This document shows positions 1,136 to 56,304 of a stretch of 56,304 bases of DNA, one piece after another. The stretch lies in NCBI RefSeq assembly GCF_030769565.1, contig NZ_JAVCAP010000007.1, positions 1 through 56,304 of the forward strand, in the 5' to 3' direction. The stretch comes from Methylophilus aquaticus (GTDB lineage Bacteria > Pseudomonadota > Gammaproteobacteria > Burkholderiales > Methylophilaceae). Within the stretch, counting starts at the first letter, position 1; each line of letters starts with the position of its first letter. A program made the translations under genes and the position numbers. The notes beneath the pieces were generated by a model, which was not told the origin of the DNA, ran no database searches, and saw nothing but the letters and a program-made list of their open reading frames with translations.

Positions 1136-2122
1136 CTACTTCTCTAAAGTAGACAGTTTTAGTGCCGCTTCCAGCCTGGGCCAATCCACCTCGTTAGGTA
1201 GCCCGAAACGCATCGCATTGGGTGCTGGAAAATAGCGCGTCCAGATGCCTTGTTCTGCCAGTGCCTGATGCAGGGCATGGCTATTGGGGTGGGTCACATA
1301 TTGAAACAGGGCGCTGCCACCTTGCGGGGCGAGGGCGTAACGGGTGAGTGTTTGTGCCAGCTTCAGTGAGGTTTGCTGTAGTTGACTGATCATGGCTTGT
1401 TGCCAGTCGCGATTTTGCAGTGCCAGGGTGGCGATCAATTGGCTTGGGCCGGTGACTGTCCATGGACCCAGTAAGGCCTGCACTTGCATCAGCGCCTGCG
1501 GTTCGCCTAATAAAAATCCCACGCGCAGCCCTGCCAGCCCAAAAAATTTACCCAGCGAGCGCAGCACCCATAAGCCGGGTTGTTCGCAGTGGCTGGCAAT
1601 GCTGTGCTCAGGGGTGCAATCCATAAAGGCTTCGTCCACTACCAGCCAGCCACCGCGCTGTTGCAGGGTTTGGTGCCAGCCTAGCAATTGTTCCGGTGCA
1701 TAGCGATGCCCGGTAGGGTTGTTGGGGTTGCACACGACCAGCACGTCACAGTGGGCAATCACTTCGTCGCTTGGTGATGTATCCAATAGGGTTAATGTGT
1801 GTCCGGCAGTTTTCCAGGCATGGGCGTGTTCTTGATACATGGTGCGTGGAATCGCCACCCGGCAGGGTGCGCGCAGGCGTGGCAGTACTTGTAAGGCCGC
1901 TTGTGACCCGGCCGTGGCAAGCACATGCTGGCAGCCATAATAGGCCGCTGCAGCTTCCAGCAGTTCATCGGCTTCTGCGGGCAAGCGCTGAAACAACGAG
2001 GGCGGCAACGGCGGAATCGGGTAGTGTTGCGGGTTGATGCCTGTTGATAAATCCAGCCATTCGGTCACCGGGATGCCGTAGCGTTGCGCCGCTTGTTGCA
2101 GGTTGCCACCATGTTCAAGCAT
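1136..2122 (-). CDS. cobD: L-threonine-O-3-phosphate decarboxylase (cobalamin biosynthesis)
   Basis: This PLP-dependent fold-type I enzyme makes (R)-1-aminopropan-2-ol O-2-phosphate, the linker between corrin ring and nucleotide loop. The preferred start is the internal ATG giving MLEHGGNL, which matches family N-termini; it overlaps the end of cbiB by 8 bp, implying translational coupling. A longer frame begins at 2149. Visible motifs are the CNPNNPTG substrate/PLP loop and the SLGKFFGLAGLRVG Schiff-base lysine region (about residue 192 from this start). The enzyme is called CobC in Pseudomonas nomenclature. Length (328 aa) is normal. It is the last gene of the leftward pair cbiB-cobD. Confidence 0.9.
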   Translation of the reverse strand: MLEHGGNLQQAAQRYGIPVTEWLDLSTGINPQHYPIPPLPPSLFQRLPAEADELLEAAAAYYGCQHVLATAGSQAALQVLPRLRAPCRVAIPRTMYQEHAHAWKTAGHTLTLLDTSPSDEVIAHCDVLVVCNPNNPTGHRYAPEQLLGWHQTLQQRGGWLVVDEAFMDCTPEHSIASHCEQPGLWVLRSLGKFFGLAGLRVGFLLGEPQALMQVQALLGPWTVTGPSQLIATLALQNRDWQQAMISQLQQTSLKLAQTLTRYALAPQGGSALFQYVTHPNSHALHQALAEQGIWTRYFPAPNAMRFGLPNEVDWPRLEAALKLSTLEK

Positions 2123-3068
2123 GTGGGAGGGCTCCCAGCAATAAGGCAATACTCAGCCAGCTCAGCATGCCACGACGTACCAGTTGCAAGGCTCTGGGAA
2201 TATCTTCAGCAGTGGGCGTCACTTGGGTGCCCAGGCGCGGCCTGTCATGCCATTCGCCGTGATAGCGGGCGCGTCCGCCCAGTTGCACATTCAGTGCGCC
2301 TGCGCCTGCCGCCATCACTGGCCCGGCATTCGGGCTATCCCATAACGGCGCCTGTGTTCGCCAGGCTTGCCAGGCGAGGCGCGTGTGTCCGAGCAAGGCG
2401 TAAGTGATGGCGGTCAGGCGTGCCGGAATATAATTCAATACATCATCGAGCCTTGCGGCGGCCCAGCCAAAGTGAAAATAGCGTGCGGTTTTATAGCCCC
2501 ACATGGCGTCCAGCGTATTCACCAAACGATAAGCGAGCGCGCCGGGGCCACCCGCCACAAAAAACCAGAATAAGGTGCCGAACACGCTGTCATTGCCGTT
2601 TTCAAGTAGCGATTCAATCGTGGCACTGACCGGTTCTATTGCTTCTACATCCCGGCTGACCATATACGAGGTCGCGCGTTGCGCCTGCTGAAATTGACCT
2701 GCCTGCAAAGCATGATAAACAGCCAGACCATGCTGGCGCAGGCTGCGGTGACCAATGGCAAAGTACAGTAAATACACATGCAGCGCCAAGGCCAGCCAGA
2801 CGGATAGGTGCATCAGTAAAACAATCGCAAGGATGGGGGGCAATACCAGCAGGATGATGCCAACGGCACCCCTGAGATATTGGCTGCGGAATGGCTGTTT
2901 GTGTGCTGGATTCAGCCGCTTTTCCAACTGGTTGACCAGCCAGCCAAAGCCCACCAGCGGGTGCCAGCGTTTCGGTTCGCCTAGCCAGTCATCAAGCAGC
3001 ACAGCACCGCAGGCAAGCCCGGCGAGTGTGAGATAATCGGGTAATGAATATGCAGGCAGTGAAAACAT
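2115..3068 (-). CDS. cbiB: Adenosylcobinamide-phosphate synthase
   Basis: This integral membrane enzyme attaches aminopropanol phosphate to adenosylcobyric acid. The recognisable family signature is [19 protein letters not shown] near the N-terminus, followed by several hydrophobic helices, [14 protein letters not shown] and [24 protein letters not shown] prefer the start [12 protein letters not shown] at 3068; the frame stays open to 3164 but that extension is proline/arginine-rich and unlike the family. From 3068 the gene overlaps the divergent cobQ start by about 25 bp. The product hands its substrate step to CobD, encoded immediately downstream with an 8-bp overlap. Confidence 0.9.
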
Positions 3069-4549
3069 TAATGGTTCAGGGCACCACTTCGGATGCCGGT
3101 AAAAGTACGCTGGTGGCTGGATTGTGTCGCGTATTGTACCGCAGCGGGGTGGCGGTGGCGCCATTCAAGCCGCAAAACATGGCCTTGAATGCGGCCGTGA
3201 CCGAAGATGGCGGCGAGATTGGCCGCGCGCAGGCGGTGCAGGCGATGGCGTGTGGCTTGCCACCGCATACCGATATGAATCCGGTGCTATTGAAGCCTAA
3301 TTCGGATACCGGTTGCCAGGTGATCATTCATGGCCAGGTAGTGGGTAATCAGGAAGCGAGTACTTACCACGACTACAAAAAAACCGCCATGCAGGCAGTG
3401 CTGCAATCCTATCAGCGTCTGCAACAACAGTATGCCTGCATCGTGGTCGAAGGCGCAGGCAGCCCGGCTGAAATCAATCTGCGCGCGAATGATATTGCCA
3501 ATATGGGCTTCGCCGAAGCGGTGGATTGCCCGGTGATTTTGGTGGCGGATATTGATAAAGGCGGCGTGTTTGCGCACCTGGTCGGCACGCTGGCATTGCT
3601 CTCTGACAGCGAGCAGGCCAGGGTAGTGGGCTTTGTCATTAATAAATTCCGCGGCGATATTGCTCTGCTACAGCCTGGTCTGGATTGGCTGGAAGCCCGT
3701 ACCGGCAAACCGGTGATCGGCGTGCTGCCTTATCTGCACGATTTGCACCTTGAAGCAGAGGATGCCATTGCCAACAGCCATACGAAAAAAGCAGATGCTC
3801 AGCTCACGGTGATCGTGCCCGTGTTGCCGCATATCGCCAACCATACCGACTTTGATGCCCTGCGTTTGCATCCGCAAGTTGACCTCCAGTTTGTGCGCTT
3901 GAGTGAGCCTATCCCGGCCGCGGATTTGATCATTTTGCCAGGCAGCAAAAATGTCCGTGGTGACCTGACAGCCCTAAAAGCCCATGGTTGGGAGAGCGCC
4001 ATTGCACGGCATTTACGCTACGGCGGCAAACTGCTGGGCATCTGCGGTGGTTTTCAGATGCTGGGCCAGCAGTTGCATGATCCCTTGGCGATTGAAGGCG
4101 AGGCAGGCAGTAGTGCAGGCCTGGGCTGGCTTGAAATGGAAACTACGCTGGAAACACACAAACAGCTCAAGCAAGTATCTGGCAAGTTAGCTTTTGCTGA
4201 TGCAGAATTGTTAGGGTATGAAATTCATATGGGCGTCAGTACCGGGTCTGCTTTAGCGCGTCCGGCACACCTGATTAAGGATCAGGCTGAAGGTGCGATC
4301 TCAGCAGATGGGCAGGTGGCAGGCAGTTATATGCATGGCCTGTTTGACCACCCGCAAGCCTGCGCTGCATGGTTGCAATGGGCGGGGATATCTACCCAGG
4401 TGGCGTATGACTACACGCAATTGCGTGAACAGAGTCTGGAGAAGCTGGCGGACAGTTTGCGCCAGCACCTGGATTGGAAAGCGCTGGCGCCTTACCTGCC
4501 AGCAGGGGTTAACCCAGATTTTCCATTAGGCGATTTTCAATCTACTTGA
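3044..4549 (+). CDS. cobQ: Cobyric acid synthase (glutamine-hydrolysing)
   Basis: This enzyme amidates positions b, d, e and g of adenosylcobyrinic acid a,c-diamide using glutamine and ATP. The N-terminal ATPase domain shows the P-loop [10 protein letters not shown] at 13-22. The C-terminal class I glutaminase domain has [12 protein letters not shown] with nucleophile Cys334 and the histidine in YMHGLFDHP (His431). Possible starts are 3044, 3050 and 3071; the conserved [13 protein letters not shown] begins at 3071, so the first nine residues are uncertain. It is the only rightward gene in the B12 block. It diverges from cbiB and converges on ybcJ. Length of 501 aa is typical. Confidence 0.93.
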
Positions 4550-4557
4550 ACGTCAAC

Positions 4558-4659
4558 TTATCCATTTTGTGTCTTTTTTGCGCAAATTAATCGGCCAATA
4601 GAATGACTATTGCCCTCAAATTTCCCCAATAAATCCATCAAACTGTCCAGCGTTGCCAT
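4558..4659 (-). CDS. Possible 33-residue small protein
   Basis: A short leftward frame begins MATLDSLMDLLGKF and ends at TAA 4558. A good Shine-Dalgarno AAGGA lies 6 nt upstream of its ATG at 4659. It occupies the gap between the convergent cobQ and ybcJ and would be the last gene of the leftward B12 run. I do not recognise the sequence. It could be a chance frame; the ribosome site is the main support. Confidence 0.3.
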   Translation of the reverse strand: MATLDSLMDLLGKFEGNSHSIGRLICAKKTQNG

Positions 4660-4695
4660 TTCAAGTCCTTATGGAAAATATGGGTTTAACGCCGC

Positions 4696-4914
4696 TTAAG
4701 CGGCGACGACTTGAATGGTGTACTCAAATGCCTGCACCACTTGCCCGGCGCGGATTTTGGCGGTTTTCCGGCGTTCAATCTGACCATCTACTGAAACCAA
4801 GCCTTCGGCCACCATGGATTTTCCCTGACCACCGCTGTCAGCCACGCCTTCCAGTTTAAGCAGGTCGCATATGGCGATATATTCACCTTTAAGTTGAAAT
4901 GTTGAAGTGGTCAT
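4696..4914 (-). CDS. ybcJ: S4-domain RNA-binding protein, YbcJ family
   Basis: This 72-residue protein consists almost only of an S4 RNA-binding fold: LKGEYIAICDLLKLEGVADSGG followed by the basic GLVSVDGQIERRKTAKIRAGQ strand-turn. I chose the ATG at 4914 because AAGGA lies about 7 nt upstream and family members begin here; the longer frame from 5013 runs into the next gene. E. coli YbcJ is a small RNA-binding protein of unknown partner. Why it sits at the end of a B12 operon is not evident. Confidence 0.85.
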   Translation of the reverse strand: MTTSTFQLKGEYIAICDLLKLEGVADSGGQGKSMVAEGLVSVDGQIERRKTAKIRAGQVVQAFEYTIQVVAA

Positions 4915-4943
4915 CAGGATTTCCTTTGTTAACAAGCGTGTGC

Positions 4944-5759
4944 TTAAGGCTTGCTTTGTGATTCGGGGGGCAAATTCACTTCCAGCGTCAGCGAAGCATT
5001 CTGGCTTTCCCACAGCAGCTCATTCAGCTGGTGATGGACAGTCACAAATAAAAAATTCAGCCCGGCTTTTTGCGGATAGAAGCTAAATTCCCCTTGCGCA
5101 TTCGCATGTATATTGGATGCTCTGACGTTATCAATGTCATACAAATCTTCAATTCTGCGCTTGGTAAAATGCTCGTTGTCGGTGACCACAATAATACGCG
5201 CATTGGGCACCGGTTTGCCGTTTTCCAGTACCTGGAAGGCCAGCGCACTGCCTAACAGCAGGCCATTAGGTGAAGCCAGCGGGATAATTTCGAGGCCTTT
5301 GTTAAACGGCTTGGGCGCATACTTTTGTTGACCCTTGAAAATATACGTGTCGGCATAGCTGTAGTAATTCATGGTGGTGGCCTTGCCCGTCACCCGTTTC
5401 ATGTCATCTGCAAAGTACAGCCTTTTATCCGCCGTTTCGACCGCTTTATAGATGGGTCCAACGCGTTGGCCGGTGCTAATCCGGTAGGAGCCCTCTTCGG
5501 TCAATTGCGGTTCCAGATATACCGCCGCTTTGGTTTTTGCGACTGGGCGAATGGCAGAGACCGTGCCGTTGGGCGCGGTGATCGTAAAGTTCGGCGAGTC
5601 CATGGCAAAGTCAGCCTGGAACGGAAACTCGGTAAACGCAGATTCAATCGTCAGGCGGTGATGCGTGACATTGAACTGGTTGGGTTTTAAAAAGGGGACA
5701 TGGGCTTGCGCAGAGAGCGAAGTTACACATGCAATAATCGTCAATAATATCTTGTGCAT
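4944..5759 (-). CDS. Periplasmic DUF4198-family protein
   Basis: The protein starts with a clear signal peptide (MHKILLTIIACVTSLSAQA, cleavage near residue 19) followed by HVPFLKP. It continues as a beta-rich secreted domain with a C-terminal Ig/transthyretin-like segment (GKPVPNARIIVVTDNE). DUF4198 proteins are often encoded near cobalt or nickel uptake genes (family knowledge, moderate certainty). Its place between cobU and ybcJ in a B12 operon suggests a role in cobalt acquisition. No catalytic motif is visible. Confidence 0.65.
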   Translation of the reverse strand: MHKILLTIIACVTSLSAQAHVPFLKPNQFNVTHHRLTIESAFTEFPFQADFAMDSPNFTITAPNGTVSAIRPVAKTKAAVYLEPQLTEEGSYRISTGQRVGPIYKAVETADKRLYFADDMKRVTGKATTMNYYSYADTYIFKGQQKYAPKPFNKGLEIIPLASPNGLLLGSALAFQVLENGKPVPNARIIVVTDNEHFTKRRIEDLYDIDNVRASNIHANAQGEFSFYPQKAGLNFLFVTVHHQLNELLWESQNASLTLEVNLPPESQSKP

Positions 5760-5774
5760 TTGATTTCTTTCTTG

Positions 5775-6299
5775 TTATTTAAGCTTCAAGGGCAAGCCTG
5801 CCGCAATAAAACTGACCTGGTTTGCCACGCTGGCTACATGCTGGTTCAGGCGGCCTTGTTCGTCCTGAAACTGGCGGTTGATTTCACCGAGCGGCACAAT
5901 GCCCATGCCGACTTCGTTGCTGACTAAAAAAACGTGGGCTTGCAGTTGTGGCAGTGCGGCCAGCAAGGCCTGTTTTTCTGCCTGCCAGTCCAGCCGTTCC
6001 GGTTTGTCGCAGTCAGGGCAGATGCACTGTGCCAGCCACAAAGTCAAACAATCCACAATCAGGCAGGTGTCGGGTGCATCGTTGTCCAGCAAAGTCTGGC
6101 CCAGGTTAAACGGCGCTTCTACCAAGCCCCAGTAAGGCGGGCGGCGGGTTTTGTGATGTTCCACGCGTTTGGCAAATTCATCGTCATACACCTGTGCGGT
6201 GGCAATATAAGTCACCGGCAGTTCAAGCACAGAGGCCAGGCGCTCGGCGTAGGCACTTTTGCCACTGCGGGCGCCGCCTAAAATCAAATGGGTGCTCAT
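5775..6299 (-). CDS. cobU: Bifunctional adenosylcobinamide kinase / cobinamide-phosphate guanylyltransferase
   Basis: This enzyme phosphorylates adenosylcobinamide and then transfers GMP to give adenosylcobinamide-GDP. The P-loop GGARSGKS is at residues 8-15. The guanylylated histidine region is VEHHKTRRP (His47/His48), and the family motif NEVGMGIVPLGEINRQFQD is present. The 174-aa length is standard. Its ATG overlaps the stop of the upstream BtuF-like gene as ATGA (4 bp), so it is translationally coupled within the leftward operon. Called CobP in Pseudomonas. Confidence 0.93.
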   Translation of the reverse strand: MSTHLILGGARSGKSAYAERLASVLELPVTYIATAQVYDDEFAKRVEHHKTRRPPYWGLVEAPFNLGQTLLDNDAPDTCLIVDCLTLWLAQCICPDCDKPERLDWQAEKQALLAALPQLQAHVFLVSNEVGMGIVPLGEINRQFQDEQGRLNQHVASVANQVSFIAAGLPLKLK

Positions 6300-7099
6300 G
6301 TGTCGCTCCTTTGCTGTTGCCAGCGTTGCATGATGGCCTGCAGTTGCGGCAGGCCTTCGCCAAACAGGGCGGGGCCAGGCTGCAAAATATCGACAGACTT
6401 GATTTCGTACACATGCCCGTCACGAATGGCAGGCATGGCATGCCAGCCCGCGCGTGCTTTGACTTTTTCTGGCTGAAACTTCTTGCCACACCACGAGCCG
6501 ATGATGATGTCCGGTTGCCTGGCCAGCACTTGTTCTGCCGTGACTGTGCGGTCACGTGCGCTATGAAAGGCGCTGAGTTCGGGGAAGCAATCCTCGCCAC
6601 CGGCGGCCGTGATCAACTCAGCCGCCCAGCGGATACTGCACATCATGGGCTCATCCCACTCTTCAAAATACACTTTGGGTTTGCGCGTCCAGGTGGCCGC
6701 TTGCTGCCGCGCAGCTGCCAGTTGTGCCTGATAAGTGTCTACCAGCTGCTGTGCCTTCTCACTTGCGCCGACCAGATCGCCGACGGTCAATATCATCTGC
6801 AATGTGTCATCCAGGCTACGCTGGTTGAACACATGTACCTGACAACCGGCTTTGATTAATGAGGCCGCAATATCGGCTTGCAGGTTGGAGAAACAGAGCA
6901 CCAGATCTGGTTGCAATGCCAGGATTTTCTCGATATTGGCACTGGTAAAGGCACTGATCTTGGGTTTCTCTTTACGTGCAATTGCAGGCCGTGTGGTGAA
7001 GCCCGAAATACCGACAATGCGGTCTTGCTCACCCAACAGGTAAAGCACTTCGACGGTTTCCGTGGTCAGGCAAACAATGCGCTCAGGCCAGCGTTTCAT
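6296..7099 (-). CDS. BtuF-like cobalamin/corrinoid-binding protein without signal peptide
   Basis: The fold is that of class III periplasmic binding proteins for vitamin B12 and siderophores. Visible features are RIVCLTTETVEVLYLLG, ISGFTTRP, then ILALQPDLVLCFSNLQADIAASL, a long helical linker, and a second lobe with VLARQPDIIIGSWCGKKF. The protein begins directly at the first beta strand (MKRWPERIVCLTTE) and no in-frame upstream extension offers a signal peptide. It therefore appears cytoplasmic unless exported differently. It overlaps both neighbours by 4 bp (bluB upstream, cobU downstream). No BtuC/BtuD permease or ATPase is in the window. Confidence 0.75.
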   Translation of the reverse strand: MKRWPERIVCLTTETVEVLYLLGEQDRIVGISGFTTRPAIARKEKPKISAFTSANIEKILALQPDLVLCFSNLQADIAASLIKAGCQVHVFNQRSLDDTLQMILTVGDLVGASEKAQQLVDTYQAQLAAARQQAATWTRKPKVYFEEWDEPMMCSIRWAAELITAAGGEDCFPELSAFHSARDRTVTAEQVLARQPDIIIGSWCGKKFQPEKVKARAGWHAMPAIRDGHVYEIKSVDILQPGPALFGEGLPQLQAIMQRWQQQRSDT

Positions 7100-7767: not shown

Positions 7768-9050
7768 GGCAGGAAAAACTGTGCCGCCAGGGCTGGGTTA
7801 GACGGAAAGTAAAAATGCAAAAAGCTGGCCGTAATACTGCCTTGTTGATAGACCGGCTCACCCACGCCATATTTTCCTTTGCCTTGCGCAATCACCGGTA
7901 AAGTGGTGTCAAAACGGCCATAGTGAAAGGTATGTGCGCCTATGCTGATGGATTCCTCATCTGCATAGGTAAAGGCGGCATGCTGTGTCCCCAGGCCTTG
8001 TAGTTTGGGTTGAATCTCAGCGCTACCCGGCAACAGGCCGAAAACAGGTTGACCATTCAGTGTTTCGCCCAGTGTAAGCATGCCGCCGCACTCAGCCAAA
8101 ATGGGTTTACCCGCCTGAACAGCCGCGAGCAAACCTTCGCGCATCGCGGTGTTAGGGTGCAGTTGATCCAGATGCAATTCTGGGTAACCGCCCGGGAGCC
8201 AGTAAGCATCTGCCTCGGGCAATTGCGCATCCTGCAAGGGGGAGAAAAACTGAATGGTGGCACCCAGGGTTTGCAGCAGATCGAGGTTGGCCTGATAAGT
8301 GAAACAGAAGGCTGCATCTTTGGCCACGGCGATGGTTTTGCCTTGTAACAGTGGTGCGGTTATATGCGGTTCTGGCGCTGCAAACTGCACTGCCGGCGGT
8401 AATGGAATCTCTGGCCCCAGCAGTTGTGCAGCCGCTTCTATGCGCTGGTCAATATCGGTAATTTCCTGTGCCAGATGCAAACCCAGGTGACGTTCTGGCA
8501 GGCTCAGTTGCGTGTCGTGTTTCATCGCGCCTAGCCAGGGAATATCTGCTGGCAGCGCAGCTTGAATCATCTTGGCATGGCCATCGCTACCGACCTGGTT
8601 GGCGATGACGCCTGCCTTTTTTAAAGCGGGCCTGAAGGCATACAAGCCATACGCAATCGCAGCAAAGGTTTGCGCCATGGATTTGGCATTGATCACCAAG
8701 CCGACCGGGATGCCAAAACGCTCGGCAATATCGGCGCACGACGGCGTGCCATCGTAGAGCCCCATCACGCCTTCGAGCAGAATGACGTCATTTTCTTGTG
8801 CGGCTTTGTAGAGCAGGCGTTGCGCATCAGCTTCTCCACACATGCCAAGGTCCAGGTTATACACCGGCTTGCCGGTCGCTACTTGCAGAATCATGCCGTC
8901 AATAAAGTCCGGCCCGCATTTAAACGCTTGTACGCGCAGGCCACGGTTTTTATAGGCCCGCGCCAGGGCGGCCGTGGTCATGGTTTTGCCTTGCCCTGAA
9001 GCAGGGGCGGCCATCAGCATGGCATGGCAGGTAGCTACAGTTGCTTGCAT
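7764..9050 (-). CDS. cobB: Cobyrinic acid a,c-diamide synthase
   Basis: This glutamine- and ATP-dependent amidase acts on the a and c carboxylates of cobyrinic or hydrogenobyrinic acid (CbiA/CobB family). The P-loop APASGQGKTMTT is near residues 15-26, followed by FKCGPDFIDG and EGVMGLYDG. The C-terminal glutaminase-like domain has ILAECGGMLTLGE with the nucleophilic cysteine. Its start overlaps the cobO stop as TAATG and its end overlaps bluB by 4 bp. The sequence does not tell whether the substrate carries cobalt. Confidence 0.9.
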   Translation of the reverse strand: MQATVATCHAMLMAAPASGQGKTMTTAALARAYKNRGLRVQAFKCGPDFIDGMILQVATGKPVYNLDLGMCGEADAQRLLYKAAQENDVILLEGVMGLYDGTPSCADIAERFGIPVGLVINAKSMAQTFAAIAYGLYAFRPALKKAGVIANQVGSDGHAKMIQAALPADIPWLGAMKHDTQLSLPERHLGLHLAQEITDIDQRIEAAAQLLGPEIPLPPAVQFAAPEPHITAPLLQGKTIAVAKDAAFCFTYQANLDLLQTLGATIQFFSPLQDAQLPEADAYWLPGGYPELHLDQLHPNTAMREGLLAAVQAGKPILAECGGMLTLGETLNGQPVFGLLPGSAEIQPKLQGLGTQHAAFTYADEESISIGAHTFHYGRFDTTLPVIAQGKGKYGVGEPVYQQGSITASFLHFYFPSNPALAAQFFLP

Positions 9051-9655
9051 TACAGGTCTATCCCAGCCTGCGCCTTGATGCCTGCGCGCCAGGCGTGTTT
9101 CACGTCCATGAGTTCAGACACGGTGTCGGCAGCATTTCTCAACGCCTCGGACGCGCCGCGGCCAGTGATCACCACGTGCTGCATGGGTGGGCGTTTGGCT
9201 ATCGCATCCAGCACCATCTGCTCGTCCAGGTAACCATATTTGAAGGTATAAGTGAGTTCGTCCAGCACCACGAGATTGATCGCAGGATCTTGCAGCATCC
9301 CGGCCACGATTTGCCAGCCACGCATGGCGGTTTCGGTATCGCTCTGGCGGTCTTGGGTGTTCCAGGTAAAGCCTTCGCCCAGCACATGCCAGGTGACGGC
9401 CGGGTGTTGGCGGAAAAAAGCTTCTTCGCCGGTATCTGAGCGGCCTTTGATGAATTGGGCCACGCCGACACGCATACCATGGCCCAGTGAGCGGGCCACC
9501 ATGCCAAAGGCGGAAGAGCTTTTGCCTTTGCCGTTGCCAGTGAGGATCAGCAGCAGGCCTTTTTCCTGGTTGGCCTGTTCTATTTTTTCATCGATGACCG
9601 CTTTTTTGCGGACCATGCGCGCCTTGTGGCGGCTATCGCGATCATTCGTTTCCAT
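9050..9655 (-). CDS. cobO: Cob(I)yrinic acid a,c-diamide adenosyltransferase
   Basis: This enzyme transfers the 5'-deoxyadenosyl group from ATP to Co(I) corrinoid (CobA/BtuR/CobO family). The P-loop GNGKGKSS is at about 40-47, and the family blocks AQFIKG, WNTQDR and LDELTYTFKYGYLD are present. I start it at METNDRDSRHK (9655); an in-frame upstream extension to 9724 would run into the preceding membrane-protein gene and is not family-like. The ribosome site is weak. The product has 201 aa. Confidence 0.9.
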   Translation of the reverse strand: METNDRDSRHKARMVRKKAVIDEKIEQANQEKGLLLILTGNGKGKSSSAFGMVARSLGHGMRVGVAQFIKGRSDTGEEAFFRQHPAVTWHVLGEGFTWNTQDRQSDTETAMRGWQIVAGMLQDPAINLVVLDELTYTFKYGYLDEQMVLDAIAKRPPMQHVVITGRGASEALRNAADTVSELMDVKHAWRAGIKAQAGIDL

Positions 9656-49304: not shown

Positions 49305-49790
49305 TTAAGCGTTAACAATCTCCTGCCCAATTTTGTCCATCGCTGCTTTTAAGGCGGTTTTGTCAGTCGCCAGTTGTGCCAGCGGCAGGGCCAGAAAAGC
49401 TTCAATACGCGCGCGTAAAATACGGTAAGCCGTGTAAAAAGCCGCTTCAATCTCCGCCTCTGTGCCAGTAGCATGTGCCGGGTCGTCCACGCCCCAGTGG
49501 GTGCGAATCACCGGCCCCAGATAGGCCGGGCAGGTTTCCCCCGCCGCGCTGCCACAGACTGTAATCACAATATCCGGCGTGACGGGCAAAGAATCCCACG
49601 ACTTGCTGAAGTAACCTTCGTTGGCAATCCCTTCTTTGGCCAGCAGGGCCAGTGAGCGCGGGTGCACATAGCCAGTCGGTTTGCTGCCCGCGCTCATGGC
49701 GCGCCAGCCTTGCGGGGCCAGGTGGTTAAAGGTGGCTTCGCCCAGAATAGAACGACAGGAGTTGCCGGTGCATAAAAATAAAATATTCAT
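49305..49790 (-). CDS. arsC: Arsenate reductase (LMW-phosphatase type, thioredoxin-linked)
   Basis: The enzyme reduces arsenate to arsenite. It begins with the phosphatase loop LCTGNSCRS (nucleophile Cys7 in C-x5-R) and has the two resolving cysteines in VCGSAAGETCP (Cys79, Cys87), as in thioredoxin-coupled ArsC. ATG 49790 is chosen because the family starts there; a longer frame opens at 49814. The product has 161 aa. It is the last gene of the leftward arsR-arsI-acr3-arsC operon. Confidence 0.93.
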   Translation of the reverse strand: MNILFLCTGNSCRSILGEATFNHLAPQGWRAMSAGSKPTGYVHPRSLALLAKEGIANEGYFSKSWDSLPVTPDIVITVCGSAAGETCPAYLGPVIRTHWGVDDPAHATGTEAEIEAAFYTAYRILRARIEAFLALPLAQLATDKTALKAAMDKIGQEIVNA

Positions 49791-49810
49791 TGGATGACTT
49801 TCTGCATCAA

Positions 49811-50869
49811 TCAAGCTTCATACCATGAGCGACTGCGGTTGACGATAGACACCACCGAGAGCATCACCGGCACTTCAATCAATACGCCCACCACCGTTGC
49901 CAGTGCGGCGCCGGAATGAAAACCAAACAGGGCAATGGCGGTGGCGACCGCCAGTTCAAAAAAATTGGAGGCACCAATCAAGGCAGAAGGCCCGGCCACA
50001 CAGTGGGCCACCTTGAGTTTCTTATTCAGCCAGTAAGCCAGCATCGCATTAAAATAAACCTGAATGGTGATCGGAACTGCCAGCAAGCCGATAATCACCG
50101 GCTGTTCTAAAATTTGCTCGCCCTGAAAAGCAAATAGCAGTACCAGAGTCAGCAACAAAGCCGAGAGCGAGAGCGGTTGCACCGTGTTAAGCAGCCTGTT
50201 CAGCGCCCCTTGTCCGCGCCGTAACAGTTGCTTGCGCAATAACTGGCTGATGATGACAGGCACCACAATAAACAGCATGACCGATAAAAACAGGGTGGCC
50301 CATGGCACCGTGATGCTTGATAAACCCAGTAGCAAAGCCACCAGTGGCGCAAAGGCAAACAGCATGATCACATCGTTAATCGCCACTTGCGACAAGGTGA
50401 ATTTTGGCTCGCCGCCACACAGCCCGCTCCACACAAATACCATGGCGGTGCATGGCGCCGCGGCCAGCAAAATCAGGCCTGCGATATAGCTGTCAATCTG
50501 CTCCGCAGGCAGCCAGTTGGCAAACAGGTGGCGTATGAAGAGCCATGCCAGCAAGGCCATGGAAAACGGTTTGACTACCCAGTTAATCAACAGCGTCACA
50601 CCGATGCCACGACTGTGGTCCAGTACTTCACGCATGGCGCTAAAATCAATTTTCAGCAGCATCGGGATAATCATCAGCCAGATCAGCACCGCCACTGGCA
50701 GGTTGACCTCGGCCACCTTGATGCCGCCTATCCATTGGAAGGCATCTGGAAACAGTTTGCCCAGTAAAACTCCCACCACGATGCAACCCAGCACCCACCA
50801 GGTCAGGTTGCGTTCAAACGTGCCGATGCCCGCGCTTGCAGGGCTTGCTTGTGTATTGGATGCGGTCAT
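49811..50869 (-). CDS. acr3: Arsenite efflux permease ACR3
   Basis: This ten-helix carrier extrudes arsenite from the cell. Characteristic segments are NLTWWVLGCIVVGVLLGKLFP, the conserved cysteine in APCTAMVFVWSGL, NDVIMLFAFAPLVALLLG and IGASNFFELAVATAIALFG. The 352-aa length is typical. No ArsA ATPase is present, so transport is likely driven by the ion gradient. The gene stands between arsI and arsC. Confidence 0.95.
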   Translation of the reverse strand: MTASNTQASPASAGIGTFERNLTWWVLGCIVVGVLLGKLFPDAFQWIGGIKVAEVNLPVAVLIWLMIIPMLLKIDFSAMREVLDHSRGIGVTLLINWVVKPFSMALLAWLFIRHLFANWLPAEQIDSYIAGLILLAAAPCTAMVFVWSGLCGGEPKFTLSQVAINDVIMLFAFAPLVALLLGLSSITVPWATLFLSVMLFIVVPVIISQLLRKQLLRRGQGALNRLLNTVQPLSLSALLLTLVLLFAFQGEQILEQPVIIGLLAVPITIQVYFNAMLAYWLNKKLKVAHCVAGPSALIGASNFFELAVATAIALFGFHSGAALATVVGVLIEVPVMLSVVSIVNRSRSWYEA

Positions 50870-50910
50870 TTTTAATCCCTAATAGAGTGGCGATGCAAAA
50901 GCTGCCGGTA

Positions 50911-51369
50911 TTACGGTTTGCTGCGCGCAATAAACGCCACCTTTTGTGGCGCTGGTGCACAACAAGCCTGACTGGCGTCGCTGCTGGTCTGGCTATCATT
51001 AAAAGTGGGGGCGCTTTCCAGCGTATGGTAGGTTTCCCACGCAATCCCCGAAGGATCCTGCACCCAGTGCTTGTCCGACTTTGCATAGCAGCACACTGTG
51101 CCTGCTTCAGTCAGTGTTGCCAGCTCCGCCTGATCGAGCCTGGCCTTGATCTCCGCCAGCTCTGCTTCCGACTCGGCCTGAATGCCGATATGGTCCATGC
51201 CGGGTACAGCGCCGCGCGCACTGATGGCAAAATTCACACGTGGATCATCCAGCATCCACTTTGCATAATCCGGCTTGGCCACGGTTGGTGGCGCACCAAA
51301 CAGCGTGGAATAAAAAGTGATACTTTGCGGCAAATCCGCCACCGCAATATGTAAGTGCATCCGTTTCAT
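50911..51369 (-). CDS. arsI: ArsI-type C-As lyase / CadI-family VOC protein
   Basis: The vicinal-oxygen-chelate fold is visible in MHLHIAVADLPQSITFYSTLFG, YAKWMLDDPRVNFAIS and DHIGIQAESEAEL. The adjacent cysteine pair in TVCCYAKSDKHWVQDPSG (Cys93-Cys94) corresponds to the trivalent organoarsenical-binding pair of ArsI, which cleaves the carbon-arsenic bond with Fe(II) and O2. A second pair (QACCAPAP) is near the C-terminus. The tight position between arsR and acr3 supports an arsenic role. Start may be M1 or M4. Confidence 0.85.
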   Translation of the reverse strand: MKRMHLHIAVADLPQSITFYSTLFGAPPTVAKPDYAKWMLDDPRVNFAISARGAVPGMDHIGIQAESEAELAEIKARLDQAELATLTEAGTVCCYAKSDKHWVQDPSGIAWETYHTLESAPTFNDSQTSSDASQACCAPAPQKVAFIARSKP

Positions 51370-51372
51370 GTG

Positions 51373-51705
51373 TTAGCCTTTCTGTGGGGGCGAGCAATAG
51401 CTATCCGGGCAACATGCGGTGTCTCCGGCACAACAGTTTTCTGTGAGGTAGGCCAGCAAGCCATTCATCGCGGCATAATCCGCCGAGTAATAAATAAAGC
51501 GGCTCTCCTGCCGCGCAGCAATCAAGCCCGCGTGGCTCAACTCTTTCAAATGAAATGACAGCGTACTGTTGGGGATATTGAGTGTTTCTGAAATGGCCCC
51601 TGCCGCCAGACCTGGCGTACCGGCTTGCACCAGCAACCTGAAAATATCCAGGCGCGCTTCCTGAGCGATGGCGCCGAGTTGTGCAACAGCTGTTTTTTTA
51701 TCCAT
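51373..51705 (-). CDS. arsR: ArsR-family arsenic-responsive repressor
   Basis: The 110-residue protein has the winged helix-turn-helix of ArsR/SmtB regulators (LDIFRLLVQAGTPGLAAGAISETLNIPNSTLSFHLKELSHAGLI). Its metalloid site is not the usual ELCVCDL; instead cysteine pairs cluster at the C-terminus (NCCAGDTACCPDSYC), as in ArsR types with C-terminal As(III) sites. It is the first gene of the operon and presumably represses it. No Shine-Dalgarno is evident before ATG 51705. Confidence 0.92.
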   Translation of the reverse strand: MDKKTAVAQLGAIAQEARLDIFRLLVQAGTPGLAAGAISETLNIPNSTLSFHLKELSHAGLIAARQESRFIYYSADYAAMNGLLAYLTENCCAGDTACCPDSYCSPPQKG

Positions 51706-51710
51706 GCACT

Positions 51711-51745
51711 ATATTTCCATAAATATAGAAATATTTCAAGCGCGC
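51711..51745 (-). promoter_or_regulatory. Promoter and likely ArsR operator of the ars operon
   Basis: On the minus strand TTGAAA (51740-51735) is followed after 17-18 nt by AAATAT/AATATA just before the arsR ATG. The inverted repeat ATATTTC / GAAATAT (51711-51717 and 51728-51734) overlaps this promoter, as expected for an autoregulated ArsR site. Confidence 0.5.
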
Positions 51746-51904
51746 TTGAGTTTCATACTAGCCTGATGAGGCTTGCAAGTTCTATTGGTTAGCATATTAC
51801 CCAAACAGCTAAGAAGTGCTAAGAATCCTGCAATTAATCATTATCAATGAAGTAAGATGCATTTTTCGCCACAATAAATTGAATAAGACTCTTCAGATAC
51901 CAAT

Positions 51905-52234
51905 ATGAAATTAACTGAACGTGACATCTGTACTAAATTCATCACGCCCGCCATTCAAAAAGCGGGTTGGGATATTCAAACCCAAGTCCGTGAAGAGGTG
52001 AGTTTTACCAAAGGCCGCATTATCGAGCGCGGCAAGTTACATAGTCGTGGCAAACGCAAACGTGCCGATTACATCCTCTATTACAAATCCAATATTCCTT
52101 TTCTGATAGCATCAATCCAAGAGCAACACTGCATCGTCGCCAAAGTCGATGCACTGATAGCGCTATGCGACCAACTCAAAAGCCGCGTTCAACAAACCAT
52201 TGCCGATGCTTTGGTGGCGCAGGCGGTGGCTTAG
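51905..52234 (+). pseudogene. In-frame HsdR-HsdS fusion relic of a type I restriction system
   Basis: Residues 1 to about 68 are the start of a type I restriction subunit of the EcoEI/EcoKI-like branch (MKLTERDICTKFITPAIQKA, GKLHSRGKRKRADYILYYKS, IPFLIA), ending just before the conserved EAK of the nuclease motif. Without a break in frame, residues from about 70 to 109 are the end of a specificity subunit HsdS (EQHCIVAKVDALIALCDQLK, ADALVAQAVA). A single deletion from within hsdR through hsdM to the end of hsdS, in a locus ordered R-M-S, would explain it. The product has neither nuclease, helicase nor DNA-recognition domain. It ends 3 bp before the RT-nitrilase gene. Confidence 0.8.
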
Positions 52235-52237
52235 ATT

Positions 52238-55200
52238 ATGAGTTTAGTCAACCCTAAATATAAACAGCTTAAGCCGACCTTGGATTATTTGTCTGACCCT
52301 GTTGTTTTAGCCCAAGCGTGGAAAAAAAGTCATAGCTACATTCGCTCGCATAATTGGTATGCAGATACGCTAGAGCTTGATGCCTCGACTTTTAACTTAG
52401 AAGAAAACATCCATAATTGGTCAGAAGAGTTAAAAAAGCAAACATACAAACCTTCTCCAATGCGTCTCGTACCAGCGCCAAAGGGAGATGTTTGGTCATT
52501 TAAAAAAATCAAAGGTCAATGGGAGTGGAAGCCCAATAAAGACATTGGCAGTGAGCCATTACGTCCTTTGGCGCATATAAACATTAAAGATCAGACCATT
52601 GCCACTGCAATTATGATGTGTGTCGCAGACGCGGTAGAGACAATCCAAGGTGCTACATCTGATAGAGATAATGTCAGTAGTTATGGGAATCGTTTATTTT
52701 GCAAATGGGACGATAAAAAAACAAAGGCAAATTTTGGATGGGGAAATAGCACAACATACAGCAAGTACTTTCAGGATTACGAGAGATTTTTAACTCGTTC
52801 AGCAAAATCTGCTAATTTAATAGATGAGTTGAATCAAATTTTTGAGGGCTCTCAACAGGTATATGAAGTTCAACTGGACATGTCTGCTTTTTATGACTCT
52901 ATCCATCGTGATGAATTGTTAAAGGAGCTAAGAGAATTAGTTGATGATTTTTATAAGTTGGCTAAAAGCGAAACAGATGCGTTCTGGAATGTAGTGAATG
53001 ACGCGTTTAATTGGCAATGGCATAAAACCGAATTTGTCTTGAATGATTGCTTAAAAGTACCCTTAAAAGATGAAGGTCTACCTCAGGGGTTGGTTGCGAG
53101 TGGTTTTTTTGCCAACGTTTACTTAATTAAGTTTGATAACGCCTGTAAAGCACTCAAGCGTTCTCATGGCCTAGATATTTCAATTCATGACTATTGTCGA
53201 TATGTTGATGACATTAGACTGATCATTTCAATTGATAAAGAAAAAATAGAAAGTGCTGAAGAGTTAATTAAAAAGAACCTTGTAAATGAACTGCAAGACT
53301 TACTACCCAAAGGGATTATATTAAATCCTGATAAAACGAAGATTATTAAATGGAACGGTGAAGAAGGCGAAACTGTAAAACAAATGGAAGGGATACAGTC
53401 TCTCGCTAGTGGTCCGATTGATATGGATTCATTAGAATTTGCAGAGAGTTCATTAGACAACCTTTTCACCCGTGCAGAGGCACCTCATCTAAATGAGGAC
53501 ATTGCTCAGCACCCCTTAGCGATTATCCACCAACCTAAATTAGAAGTGCGTGAAGACACCTTATTGAGGTTTGCAGCTAATCGTTGGACAAAGCTTTTTA
53601 AATCACGAAGAAAGCTAACAAACCAGAAAGAAATGTTGGCTTTAGATGCAGCTCAAGAAGCTGTTGCAAGAAGATTTGTTGCAAGTTGGTCAAGAAACCC
53701 TGCGCTCACTCTTTTATTAAAAAAAGGGCTCCAACTTTTTCCTAATAAAGAATTAGTTGAAACAGTTTGGACTTCATTAATAAACAAACTCAGTGATAAA
53801 ACGCCAATACGTGAAAGATACATTGCTTATTATTGTTTGGCAGAAATTTGCAGATTTTCAGCAACTGAATTAAAAAAAATCACTGACATTGACGTCCCAG
53901 ACTCAATTAAACTCGCTGAGTATTTTGATTGGTTAGAGAATGCAACAAGGTCTCTGTTAGAAACACACGCTACCCCTTGGTATTTAACTCAACAAGCTTG
54001 CCTTGTTCTTGTTGGGAAAGCATATTCTGTAAAATCAGAAAATGACTTAGTACTCAGCTACGTTTTGAAAATCTCAAATGGAGAGTTAGTTCATGGCGAT
54101 AGCAGTCAGGTATTACCTGCTGCCACTGTAGCTTGGCAGATAACGCAGTCAGAGAAGGTAATAGACTGTATAAAACATTGGCTCGCCACCCTTGATGAGC
54201 TACAAAAAAAACAATCATTAATCCTACTGCTAGAAAATGATTCAGAATTGTTTAATCGTCTTTATTTAGCAATTGATGATGATAGGAGGGTCATTTATAA
54301 CCAAATTAGAAGAAGTTATGGAATGGAAATTGTTCCATTACCACCTGACTTATCAATATGGAGTAGCGAAGCTAATCTCGCCTCTGTTATCAAGTCGCCA
54401 TCAAATCCTTTTATTCATGAAAACGCTCTGATTGCTCTTGCAAAGGCATCAATTGATGCAATAAAAATAAATCCTGATGTAAAGTTGTTACCGCATTTGC
54501 TCATGATTAAATGCGAAGATTGGTTTAGCGTACAGAATCCTCATAAGGTCAAACTCTCTTTATCCCATGTAAATGACGTCCACGACTTAATTGAGGATAC
54601 AAGGTATAAAAAACCAACATGGTTAAGCAATAATGTTGCATCGAATAAGCTTTATGAATTGGGTTGTCTGTTAAGGGCATGTGCTATTAGTGACTGCGAC
54701 TTTACTGCGCAAAAAGCACTCTTCCGTCAAAATCAGAGTGTTTATTATGGAATTAAGAGTTGCTGGTTTAAGCGCACCACAGGGATGATGCATTCACCAG
54801 AAGCTCTGGTTGGTGAAACAGCACCAATGTCTAGTTGGGTAACTGAGTTGTTATTTAATTTACTGCAATGGCCAGGTTTAGATATTGAAAACTGGGAGTA
54901 TGAATGGCCAACTGAAATTAATATCGACACCCTACTCAAGGGACTTTCATCCAGAGAAGATCACCAAAAGAGAATTTTTGGTGTGGCATCCGATACTGCC
55001 TTTTACATAGAAAGAATCAAAACAGTTTCGCCTCTTAATGGCAATTTAAGAGTGATAAATGTTCAAACATTGATGCCAACAAACGAGAGTTTAAAAGAGG
55101 ATTTTGAGCAAAATACTCCAGACATAAGAGTTGCGCACAGAAATCATTTATCTGATATTTGCAACATTATTCTAAAAAAGCTTAAGGCAACCGATGATGT

Positions 55201-55945
55201 TTTAAAACCTAAATCTGAAATTAAAAAACAGAAAATAAAAACGGAAGCTAACCTGATTATATTTCCAGAACTATCAGTTCATCAGGGCGATATTGACCTT
55301 CTGGAAGCGCTATCTGCCACAACTAACGCGATAATTTTTGCTGGAATTGTTTTCCATAAGCATGAAGGTAAGTTAATTAATCGCGCCTTATGGTTGATAC
55401 CAAATCACTCACCAGAAAAGGGTATTCGATGGATTAAACGTTGGCAAGGTAAGGAAAATATGACCAACGATGAGCTAGGCCATATTTCACCATGGAGACC
55501 ATATCAACTAATTATAGAATTGAAGAACTCTCTACCGATTGAAAAAAATCGAGGATATAGATTGTCTGGTTCTGTTTGCTATGACGCTACCGATATGAAG
55601 TTAACAGCAGATTTGCGAGATATATCTGATGCATATTTGGTAGTGGCACTAAATAACGACATTACAACTTTTGATAACATGATTGATGCCTTACATTATC
55701 ATATGTACCAACATGTTCTCTTAGTGAACACGGGGGAGTATGGCGGCAGTGCTGCAAAAGCGCCCTTTAAATTGCCTCATCATCGCACTATTGTTCACAA
55801 TCATGGAAATCATCAAATCGCTGTTTCTATTTTTGAGATCGATATGATGTCTTTGTTAGATGACCAAGCTCCAAAACCTGAAGAAACTTACCAAAGAATT
55901 CGAAAAATGAAACCCGCGGGTATCCAAAAGCCTGGATTAACCTAA
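52238..55945 (+). CDS. drt1: Reverse transcriptase-nitrilase fusion, DRT type 1 (UG1)-like anti-phage protein
   Basis: The 1235-residue protein has an N-terminal reverse transcriptase domain (about 50-400): motif A VQLDMSAFYDSI (Asp214), motif B GLPQGLVASGFFANVYL (280-296), motif C YVDD (322-325) and LNPDKTKII (362-370). A long helical region (about 430-930) links it to a C-terminal nitrilase-like domain (about 935-1205) with an apparent full triad: Glu1011 in FPELSV, Lys1072 in QGKENM and Cys1114 in SVCYDATD. RT joined to C-terminal nitrilase is the architecture of defence-associated reverse transcriptase type 1 (UG1). The gene is much more AT-rich than the cobalamin and ars genes, suggesting transfer. 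It starts 3 bp after the hsd relic; only GGCGGTGG-like bases could serve as ribosome site. Confidence 0.88.
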   Translation: MSLVNPKYKQLKPTLDYLSDPVVLAQAWKKSHSYIRSHNWYADTLELDASTFNLEENIHNWSEELKKQTYKPSPMRLVPAPKGDVWSFKKIKGQWEWKPNKDIGSEPLRPLAHINIKDQTIATAIMMCVADAVETIQGATSDRDNVSSYGNRLFCKWDDKKTKANFGWGNSTTYSKYFQDYERFLTRSAKSANLIDELNQIFEGSQQVYEVQLDMSAFYDSIHRDELLKELRELVDDFYKLAKSETDAFWNVVNDAFNWQWHKTEFVLNDCLKVPLKDEGLPQGLVASGFFANVYLIKFDNACKALKRSHGLDISIHDYCRYVDDIRLIISIDKEKIESAEELIKKNLVNELQDLLPKGIILNPDKTKIIKWNGEEGETVKQMEGIQSLASGPIDMDSLEFAESSLDNLFTRAEAPHLNEDIAQHPLAIIHQPKLEVREDTLLRFAANRWTKLFKSRRKLTNQKEMLALDAAQEAVARRFVASWSRNPALTLLLKKGLQLFPNKELVETVWTSLINKLSDKTPIRERYIAYYCLAEICRFSATELKKITDIDVPDSIKLAEYFDWLENATRSLLETHATPWYLTQQACLVLVGKAYSVKSENDLVLSYVLKISNGELVHGDSSQVLPAATVAWQITQSEKVIDCIKHWLATLDELQKKQSLILLLENDSELFNRLYLAIDDDRRVIYNQIRRSYGMEIVPLPPDLSIWSSEANLASVIKSPSNPFIHENALIALAKASIDAIKINPDVKLLPHLLMIKCEDWFSVQNPHKVKLSLSHVNDVHDLIEDTRYKKPTWLSNNVASNKLYELGCLLRACAISDCDFTAQKALFRQNQSVYYGIKSCWFKRTTGMMHSPEALVGETAPMSSWVTELLFNLLQWPGLDIENWEYEWPTEINIDTLLKGLSSREDHQKRIFGVASDTAFYIERIKTVSPLNGNLRVINVQTLMPTNESLKEDFEQNTPDIRVAHRNHLSDICNIILKKLKATDDVLKPKSEIKKQKIKTEANLIIFPELSVHQGDIDLLEALSATTNAIIFAGIVFHKHEGKLINRALWLIPNHSPEKGIRWIKRWQGKENMTNDELGHISPWRPYQLIIELKNSLPIEKNRGYRLSGSVCYDATDMKLTADLRDISDAYLVVALNNDITTFDNMIDALHYHMYQHVLLVNTGEYGGSAAKAPFKLPHHRTIVHNHGNHQIAVSIFEIDMMSLLDDQAPKPEETYQRIRKMKPAGIQKPGLT

Positions 55946-56065
55946 TAAATCCATATTTCATTTTTTCAAAGAATCATGTCGTGTATTTGTCAGGTTGCTG
56001 TCGTGTTTGTAAACTCTTGATGGTTTCATAATAGCTCAACGTTTTTTCAAACAAGGAGAGTTAAA
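55946..56065. other. Short AT-rich spacer between drt1 and the cut xre gene
   Basis: This 120-bp gap carries a TTGATGG...CATAAT-like promoter candidate around 56015-56035 and the ribosome site AAGGAGAG before the xre ATG. No terminator hairpin with a T-tract is evident after drt1. Confidence 0.3.
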
Positions 56066-56224
56066 ATGATTGAGACTAATAAAAATCCCCCACGCCTACT
56101 AACTCCAATTGAATTTGGGTTGCTAGTATTAATGACTAGAAACTCTCGCAAATGGTCACAAGAAACACTTGCTGAACTTAGTCACCAGAGGTGGACCCGG
56201 AAAACTGGACAGTGTTTTAAGTGA
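56066..56224 (+). pseudogene. XRE-type helix-turn-helix regulator, truncated by an IS
   Basis: The frame starts after AAGGAGAG and reads MIETNKNPPRLLTPIEFGLL, then RKWSQETLAELSH, the first helices of an XRE/Cro-type DNA-binding domain. At about 56186 the insertion sequence begins, so the recognition helix and the remainder are lost and 12 IS-derived residues run to a stop. The intact gene may have regulated the defence locus, but this is inference. Confidence 0.65.
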
Positions 56225-56304
56225 TATTCTTGCTTAACCTTGCAGCCGATAGGCGGCAGAAAGCAGAGAAAGAAAGCAATGAAACGTACCCGAAGAACCC
56301 ACGC
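56186..56304 (+). mobile_element. 5' end of an IS3-like insertion sequence (right copy, cut by window edge)
   Basis: This is the same 119 bp as 1-119, in inverted orientation. The element starts at or just before TGGACCCGGAAAACTGGACA (56192) and reaches the transposase start ATG at 56279 (MKRTRRTH). It points out of the window, so the two copies face away from each other. No target duplication can be recognised because the far ends are missing. Confidence 0.7.

Follow-up and report, generated by a model that had tools for sequence, protein, structure and literature searches.

A complete DRT1 reverse transcriptase–nitrilase gene next to the remnant of a type I restriction operon in Methylophilus aquaticus

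How does an intact gene for a reverse transcriptase (RT) joined to a nitrilase come to stand directly behind a fragment of a type I restriction–modification (R-M) operon, and what would its product do there? The question is raised by a stretch of DNA from Methylophilus aquaticus (assembly GCF_030769565.1, contig NZ_JAVCAP010000007.1), hereafter the window, which was analysed over its full 56304 bases and is the entire contig C43. The gene, drt1, occupies 52238..55945 on the + strand, with the right contig end 359 nucleotides (nt) past it. Very probably it encodes an abortive-infection system of the DRT1 type (defence-associated reverse transcriptase 1), and apparently it was formerly the last of four genes in an hsdR-hsdM-hsdS-drt1 operon. 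The mechanism has already been published for a homologue; what is new here is an apparent scar of the operon, which seems to have decayed the other way round in a congener, and an invariant glutamine beside the priming serine.

The DRT1 protein and its conserved residues

The drt1 frame runs from ATG to TAA over 1235 codons with no internal stop, which bears out an earlier note on this DNA, made from the sequence alone, that had described a single intact RT–nitrilase gene of the UG1/DRT1 type. Its product consists of an RT domain, an alpha-helical repeat region and a C-terminal nitrilase domain. The PADLOC model Drt1a matches it with 1285.7 bits (residues 4-1229 on model positions 4-1176 of 1176), a full-length family score that rules out chance, and the top sequence match in the PDB is 9yfd, 'Defense-associated reverse transcriptase 1' (E=3.1e-172). 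The window gene is a complete, full-length and divergent member of DRT1/UG1, and adds to a known system.

A family search of genome contigs yielded 43 distinct DRT1 loci (numbered with L; genomes are numbered with G). The alignment left out the nine loci without one matching frame of at least 1180 amino acids (aa), namely L051, L061, L062, L068, L069, L070, L071, L072 and L074; L002, from a search of the order, was added, and L003, identical to L035, was removed. The resulting 37 rows comprise the window protein, residues 1-1211 of 9YFD and 35 loci, to which six more relatives were later added, of which plasmids supplied four and viral contigs two. Within the RT domain (about residues 100-375; 52535..53362, +), delimited by the 9YFD alignment and Pfam RVT_1, the motif A aspartate D214 (52877-52879) and the YVDD motif at residues 322-325 lie where the earlier note had placed them. 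D214, D324, D325, S391, E1011, K1072 and C1114 are identical in all 37 rows and in all six added rows. S391, the priming serine (S402 in 9YFD), closes a short segment that begins with Q387 (53396..53410, +), as located by the family alignment. Q387 itself (53396-53398), four residues ahead of the priming serine, is likewise invariant in 37/37 and 6/6 rows amid variable surroundings; the 37-row alignment holds 89 invariant positions, and Q387 and S391 are the sole ones between residues 376 and 440. A two-residue insert separates the invariant glutamine from the priming serine in 9YFD and in two of the added relatives.

The nitrilase domain and C-terminal tail span residues 921-1235 (54998..55942, +). 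A Glu1011-Lys1072-Cys1114 triad had been proposed for this region; the three residues are in place and invariant, but the triad leaves out one member, E1079, which is Glu in 36/37 rows, Asp in one and kept in 6/6 added rows, and which would be the fourth residue of the nitrilase catalytic tetrad. The C-terminal lid motif K1223-x-x-P-A1227-G (55904..55921, +), read from the family alignment, has its Lys and Ala identical in all 36 rows that reach the tail and in the six added ones. The 9YFD row ends at residue 1211, and the match of K1223/A1227 to K1219/A1223 rests on numbering and spacing; the numbering is supported by L139, whose tail after its R-K is as long as that of 9YFD, with K and A at places 1219 and 1223. 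An AlphaFold2 model of residues 921-1235, built from 34 aligned sequences (without L038, which has an undetermined residue, L002 and 9YFD), predicts with a mean pLDDT (predicted local distance difference test) of 86.9 and a pTM (predicted template modelling score) of 0.88 that the C-terminal domain is a nitrilase fold, as the earlier note had expected. With this model, Foldseek returned 112 matches at E <= 0.001, of which the best 50 are all carbon-nitrogen hydrolases by name, including mouse nitrilase-2, aliphatic amidase, formamidase and glutamine-dependent NAD synthetase, with TM-scores (by query length) in the moderate range of 0.47-0.59; these 50 do not include 9yfd, in a structure library that runs to April 2026.

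What these residues may do can be read from the solved DRT1 (9YFD) of Neville et al. 2026 (PMC13275509). DRT1 primes template-free DNA on its own S402; the RT-dead protein is monomeric, whereas the wild type forms tetramers and filaments; and it is the self-primed DNA adducts that bring about a filament in the dormant state, with the C-terminal tail closing the nitrilase pocket of a neighbouring subunit (PMC13275509). The paper also describes a catalytic tetrad in the nitrilase, naming C1116, and reports that DRT1 by itself protects E. coli, that D324N/D325N, C1116A and S402A abolish defence, that K1219A and A1223F cut it to the level of a tail deletion, and that T4 phages escaping defence are altered in dda, a helicase gene that is required but does not suffice. 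These essential positions are all present in the window protein, as D324/D325, S391 (S402), C1114 (C1116) and K1223/A1227 (K1219/A1223), from which we infer that it goes through the same cycle. By homology to 9YFD, the RT would make short, template-free DNA attached to Ser391 of its own protein, and these adducts would drive the formation of tetramers and then filaments. In the filament, the tail (K1223, A1227) would close the nitrilase pocket (E1011, K1072, E1079, C1114) of another subunit and hold it dormant, until phage infection releases this state and the freed nitrilase acts on a molecule such that the infection is ended and the cell sacrificed. Priming, filament formation, triggering and cell shutdown, and with them the antiphage function of this copy, are thus presumed by homology. 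The earlier note held that the way RT and nitrilase cooperate was not established; this has in large part been overtaken by the DNA adducts and the dormant filament (PMC13275509). The wider meaning is that the priming serine and lid of one solved protein are kept across many phyla, the rows that retain them coming from Pseudomonadota, Planctomycetota, Chloroflexota, Gemmatimonadota, Thermodesulfobacteriota, Myxococcota and Bacillota.

The R-M remnant ahead of drt1

Directly upstream lies a 109-aa open reading frame (ORF; 51905..52234, +), the stop of which is 3 nt ahead of the drt1 ATG, with ATT as the spacer. On the evidence of NF046051, PADLOC and an alignment with the congener G435, it joins in frame the N-terminus of HsdR to the C-terminus of HsdS. 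Residues 3-69 match the EcoAI-type HsdR model NF046051 from its first position (78.7 bits) and also PADLOC REase_I (72.8 bits), and a stretch from about residue 62 to 108 aligns with the C-terminal end of HsdS models (Specificity_I, 31.0 bits); these two ends are the only remnants, and no complete HsdR, HsdM or HsdS is present at this position. G435 (L114, reverse complement) has full-length frames for hsdR (1203-3557), hsdM (3573-5051) and hsdS (5054-6793), named from the scar matches and from phmmer with relatives. Its hsdS is followed by ATT and a GTG-started DRT1, the same 3-nt junction as in the window, and this DRT1 is a stub: its match to the window contains a 1-nt loss and extends to roughly codon 62, where the gene breaks off. 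Window position 52099 corresponds to L114 1406 and 52121 to L114 6662, so that the window lacks some 5.2 kb, with about 21 nt of the deletion junction left unassigned. On the simplest reading of this comparison, drt1 once stood fourth in an hsdR-hsdM-hsdS-drt1 operon, from which a deletion of about 5.2 kb took most of the R-M genes and left the 109-aa fusion ORF. The operon apparently decayed in opposite ways, the window lineage losing R-M and G435 losing DRT1. This contrast between two species of the same genus is relevant to whether restriction and DRT1 depend on each other; each has apparently outlived the other.

DNA related to both scar ends occurs in 4/22 genomes of the genus, the window's own included. 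G496 has both hsd ends, and its contig stops 231 nt past the hsdS match. G443 also has the hsdR and hsdS ends, with other genes after hsdS: at the place of DRT1 (L115, C4:377000-390000; reverse complement 8115-9335) stand ORFs of 233 and 171 aa, the first of which looks DUF3800-like by eye. A derivation of the scar from the genome's other EcoAI-type hsdR (contig C13) was considered and dropped; blastn of window 51300-56304 gave no hit to it at E<=1e-3, and the scar is therefore not a close duplicate.

Linkage to R-M genes recurs elsewhere in the family. A neighbour search with the three G435 Hsd proteins, which distant R-M families would escape and for which some flanks are short, found a type I R-M match in 8/43 DRT1 loci and none in the other 35. 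All of hsdR, hsdM and hsdS stand ahead of DRT1 in L067 and L068, the DRT1 of the latter being split; L041 and L055 have hsdM and hsdR, and L057 has hsdM and an upstream neighbour that is HsdR by PADLOC; in L062, hsdR lies on the opposite strand; and L036 retains a short HsdR remnant and L046 one of HsdS, overlapping the DRT1 start. Since L067 carries its DRT1 on a different branch from that of the window, the linkage may have more than one origin, to judge from these few cases. When one same-strand upstream neighbour in each of 20 loci was scanned with PADLOC, 15 had a defence-family match at E <= 1e-5, which in five cases was no better than weak or modest (four LmuB-like, one PDC-M58A), and the remaining five matched none. 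DRT1 is thus often found among defence genes, the hsd linkage being one recurring form of this. No description of an hsd-DRT1 link was met in literature titles and abstract openings, which is not proof of absence. PrrC is a guard of an R-M system. It is conceivable, but doubtful, that the slot behind hsdS of type I R-M operons is a recurrent landing place at which DRT1 serves as a second, suicidal line after restriction, guarding the R-M system in the way PrrC does, and that on loss of the R-M genes an in-frame stub of them is retained for the sake of DRT1 translation, which would depend on it.

Activity, self-sufficiency and family membership

An open frame may still be silent. The gene could be an inactive relic, inherited through the deletion in the R-M operon and perhaps barely expressed: the R-M genes ahead of it are mostly lost, the congener's copy is broken, 5/43 relatives are split, and a consensus scan lists no + strand promoter-like site from 51600 to the drt1 start. 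Against this stand 1235 codons without a stop and the retention of all known essential residues; moreover, the scan is confined to sigma-70-type sites and gave 7 promoter-like sites, fewer than the 12.7 of shuffles. A terminator scan gave 4 sites vs 3.5 in shuffles, and neither scan supports a positive claim. We regard a relic as improbable, and to the same degree a gene that is not self-sufficient and needs Drt1b or another partner beyond the contig end. Drt1b is a membrane protein that adjoins about 18% of drt1 genes, according to PMC13275509, and a Drt1b-family gene follows drt1 directly in 3/4 plasmid relatives examined; the contig, as noted, ends shortly after drt1. However, the window's genome contains no Drt1b-family match, in an assembly of 45 contigs that may be incomplete, whereas the same search finds Drt1b in a plasmid record that is known to carry it, and strong defence by a DRT1 without Drt1b is reported (PMC13275509).

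The RT-domain tree (IQ-TREE; 47 rows, comprising 37 DRT1, four UG5 and six other RTs) places the window protein within the DRT1 rows, away from UG5, in agreement with the membership that the note had claimed. There it groups with L032, from a metagenome-assembled genome (MAG) of Syntrophobacteraceae, at a support of 99/93. Membership in UG5-nitrilase (DRT5-type) instead of DRT1, although the RT-plus-nitrilase plan is identical and the UG5-nitrilase model of PADLOC scores 139.2 bits, is scarcely credible and was dropped, with Drt1a at 1285.7 bits and the four UG5 RTs set apart in the tree.

Several points nevertheless count against an active DRT1 with the history and mechanism proposed here. 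The 37 DRT1 rows cluster apart from the UG5 and other RTs with moderate support (88/78), with long outside branches and a program warning. Where the earlier note had looked to profile searches for both families, the DRT1 family was recovered but the nitrilase domain was not: Pfam finds RVT_1 alone (residues 188-371; 41.6 bits, cut-off 29.6), NCBIfam gives RT matches only, all below cut-off, and neither names a nitrilase domain in the window protein. The helical repeat has little identity to that of 9YFD (21.4%), and in the priming-loop region, residues 376-440, only 8/62 aligned positions match. Residue R1210 of 9YFD, which there takes part in the tail contact and is Arg in 17/37 rows, is replaced by D1208 in the window, so that the tail contact may differ in detail from that of 9YFD. 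The operon history rests on one congener. Finally, DRT1 is split into two frames or pieces in five of the 43 genome-contig loci (L051, L061, L062, L068 and L071); either breakage is fairly common among DRT1 copies, as it seems, or these are errors of assembly, and an intact frame is consequently no proof of use.

Distribution, surroundings and comparison with known systems

DRT1 is patchily distributed in the order, family and genus of the host. At E <= 0.001, the Drt1a model matches 88/399 genomes of the order and 3/14 control genomes; in the order search, the full model is matched in G000, G223 and G307 only, G374 matches over 121 positions, and the remaining matches, among those listed, are partial RT or nitrilase stretches. 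A protein search matched 4/100 genomes of the family, namely the window, the G435 stub and two weak RT matches, and DRT1 sequence occurs in 2/22 genomes of the genus, the window and the broken G435 stub. The GC content of drt1 is 37.5%, against 50.1% for the window, and its third-position GC is 31.8%, compared with 53.8% and 55.7% in two other window genes. The low GC and the patchy distribution fit a horizontal arrival, and together with a nearest relative in Syntrophobacteraceae they support the acquisition that the earlier note had suggested. Its description of the host as a methylotroph is compatible with the genome: two genes exceed the family cut-off for the ribulose monophosphate (RuMP) pathway hexulose-phosphate synthase, which is no proof, as 2/14 control genomes pass too. 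A search of 50,697 phage records gave zero DRT1 matches, viral contigs yielded two DRT1 loci, used as test rows only, and nine plasmid records match DRT1, four of them over at least 80% of the query. On plasmids, L135, L136 and L137 carry DRT1 with Drt1b; a viperin gene lies ahead of DRT1-Drt1b in Pseudoalteromonas, Qat genes do so in Vibrio tubiashii, and in a Photobacterium plasmid type I-F CRISPR genes, accompanied by a TniQ gene, are found close to DRT1-Drt1b.

In the window itself, what by eye is an arsenic-resistance cluster (ArsR-like, ACR3-like and arsenate-reductase-like genes; 49305-51705, -) lies beside the scar. The same repeat, a putative insertion sequence (IS) element by its look, occupies both contig ends (1-119 and 56186-56304); searched with the right end, it is found at 20 places in the genome. 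At the right end the repeat interrupts a short ORF starting at 56066, helix-turn-helix-like by eye, for which no family match, Pfam included, and no relative in the other 21 genus genomes was found. At the left end, a further type I restriction gene, which belongs to a different HsdR family (71-1042, -; 409.9 bits with PADLOC REase_I and 116.7 bits with Pfam HSDR_N, residues 3-308), runs into the contig end where the putative IS copy begins, and looks cut short.

Compared with known systems, the window gene resembles UG5-nitrilase/DRT5 in having an RT with a nitrilase, which there is fused or neighbouring, and differs in a far weaker score to that model and in the separate group that UG5 forms in the RT tree. 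Its gene order is shared with L067 (Saccharospirillum) and G435, in which drt1 likewise comes immediately after hsdS, in type I R-M operons of the EcoAI-like kind. In both, however, the R-M frames are full length, in place of the 109-aa fusion of the window, and in G435 drt1 is a broken stub, whereas L067 belongs to another branch of DRT1. The nearest relative, the DRT1 of L032, is sister to the window protein in the RT tree and also closest by identity (43.6% over 1203 positions), but has no type I R-M match in its available flanks, and its upstream gene only weakly matches a candidate defence family. The DRT1 of Neville et al. 2026 (9YFD, 1229 aa) is collinear with the window protein over its full length and has the YVDD aspartates, priming Ser, nitrilase Cys and lid Lys/Ala in common with it. 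The two differ in sequence, with 31.3% identity over 1162 aligned positions, 37.0% in the RT domain (100/270 aligned positions) and 43.5% in the nitrilase part; the window protein, which sits on another branch of the DRT1 tree, lacks the two-residue insert ahead of the priming serine and has Asp where 9YFD has R1210.

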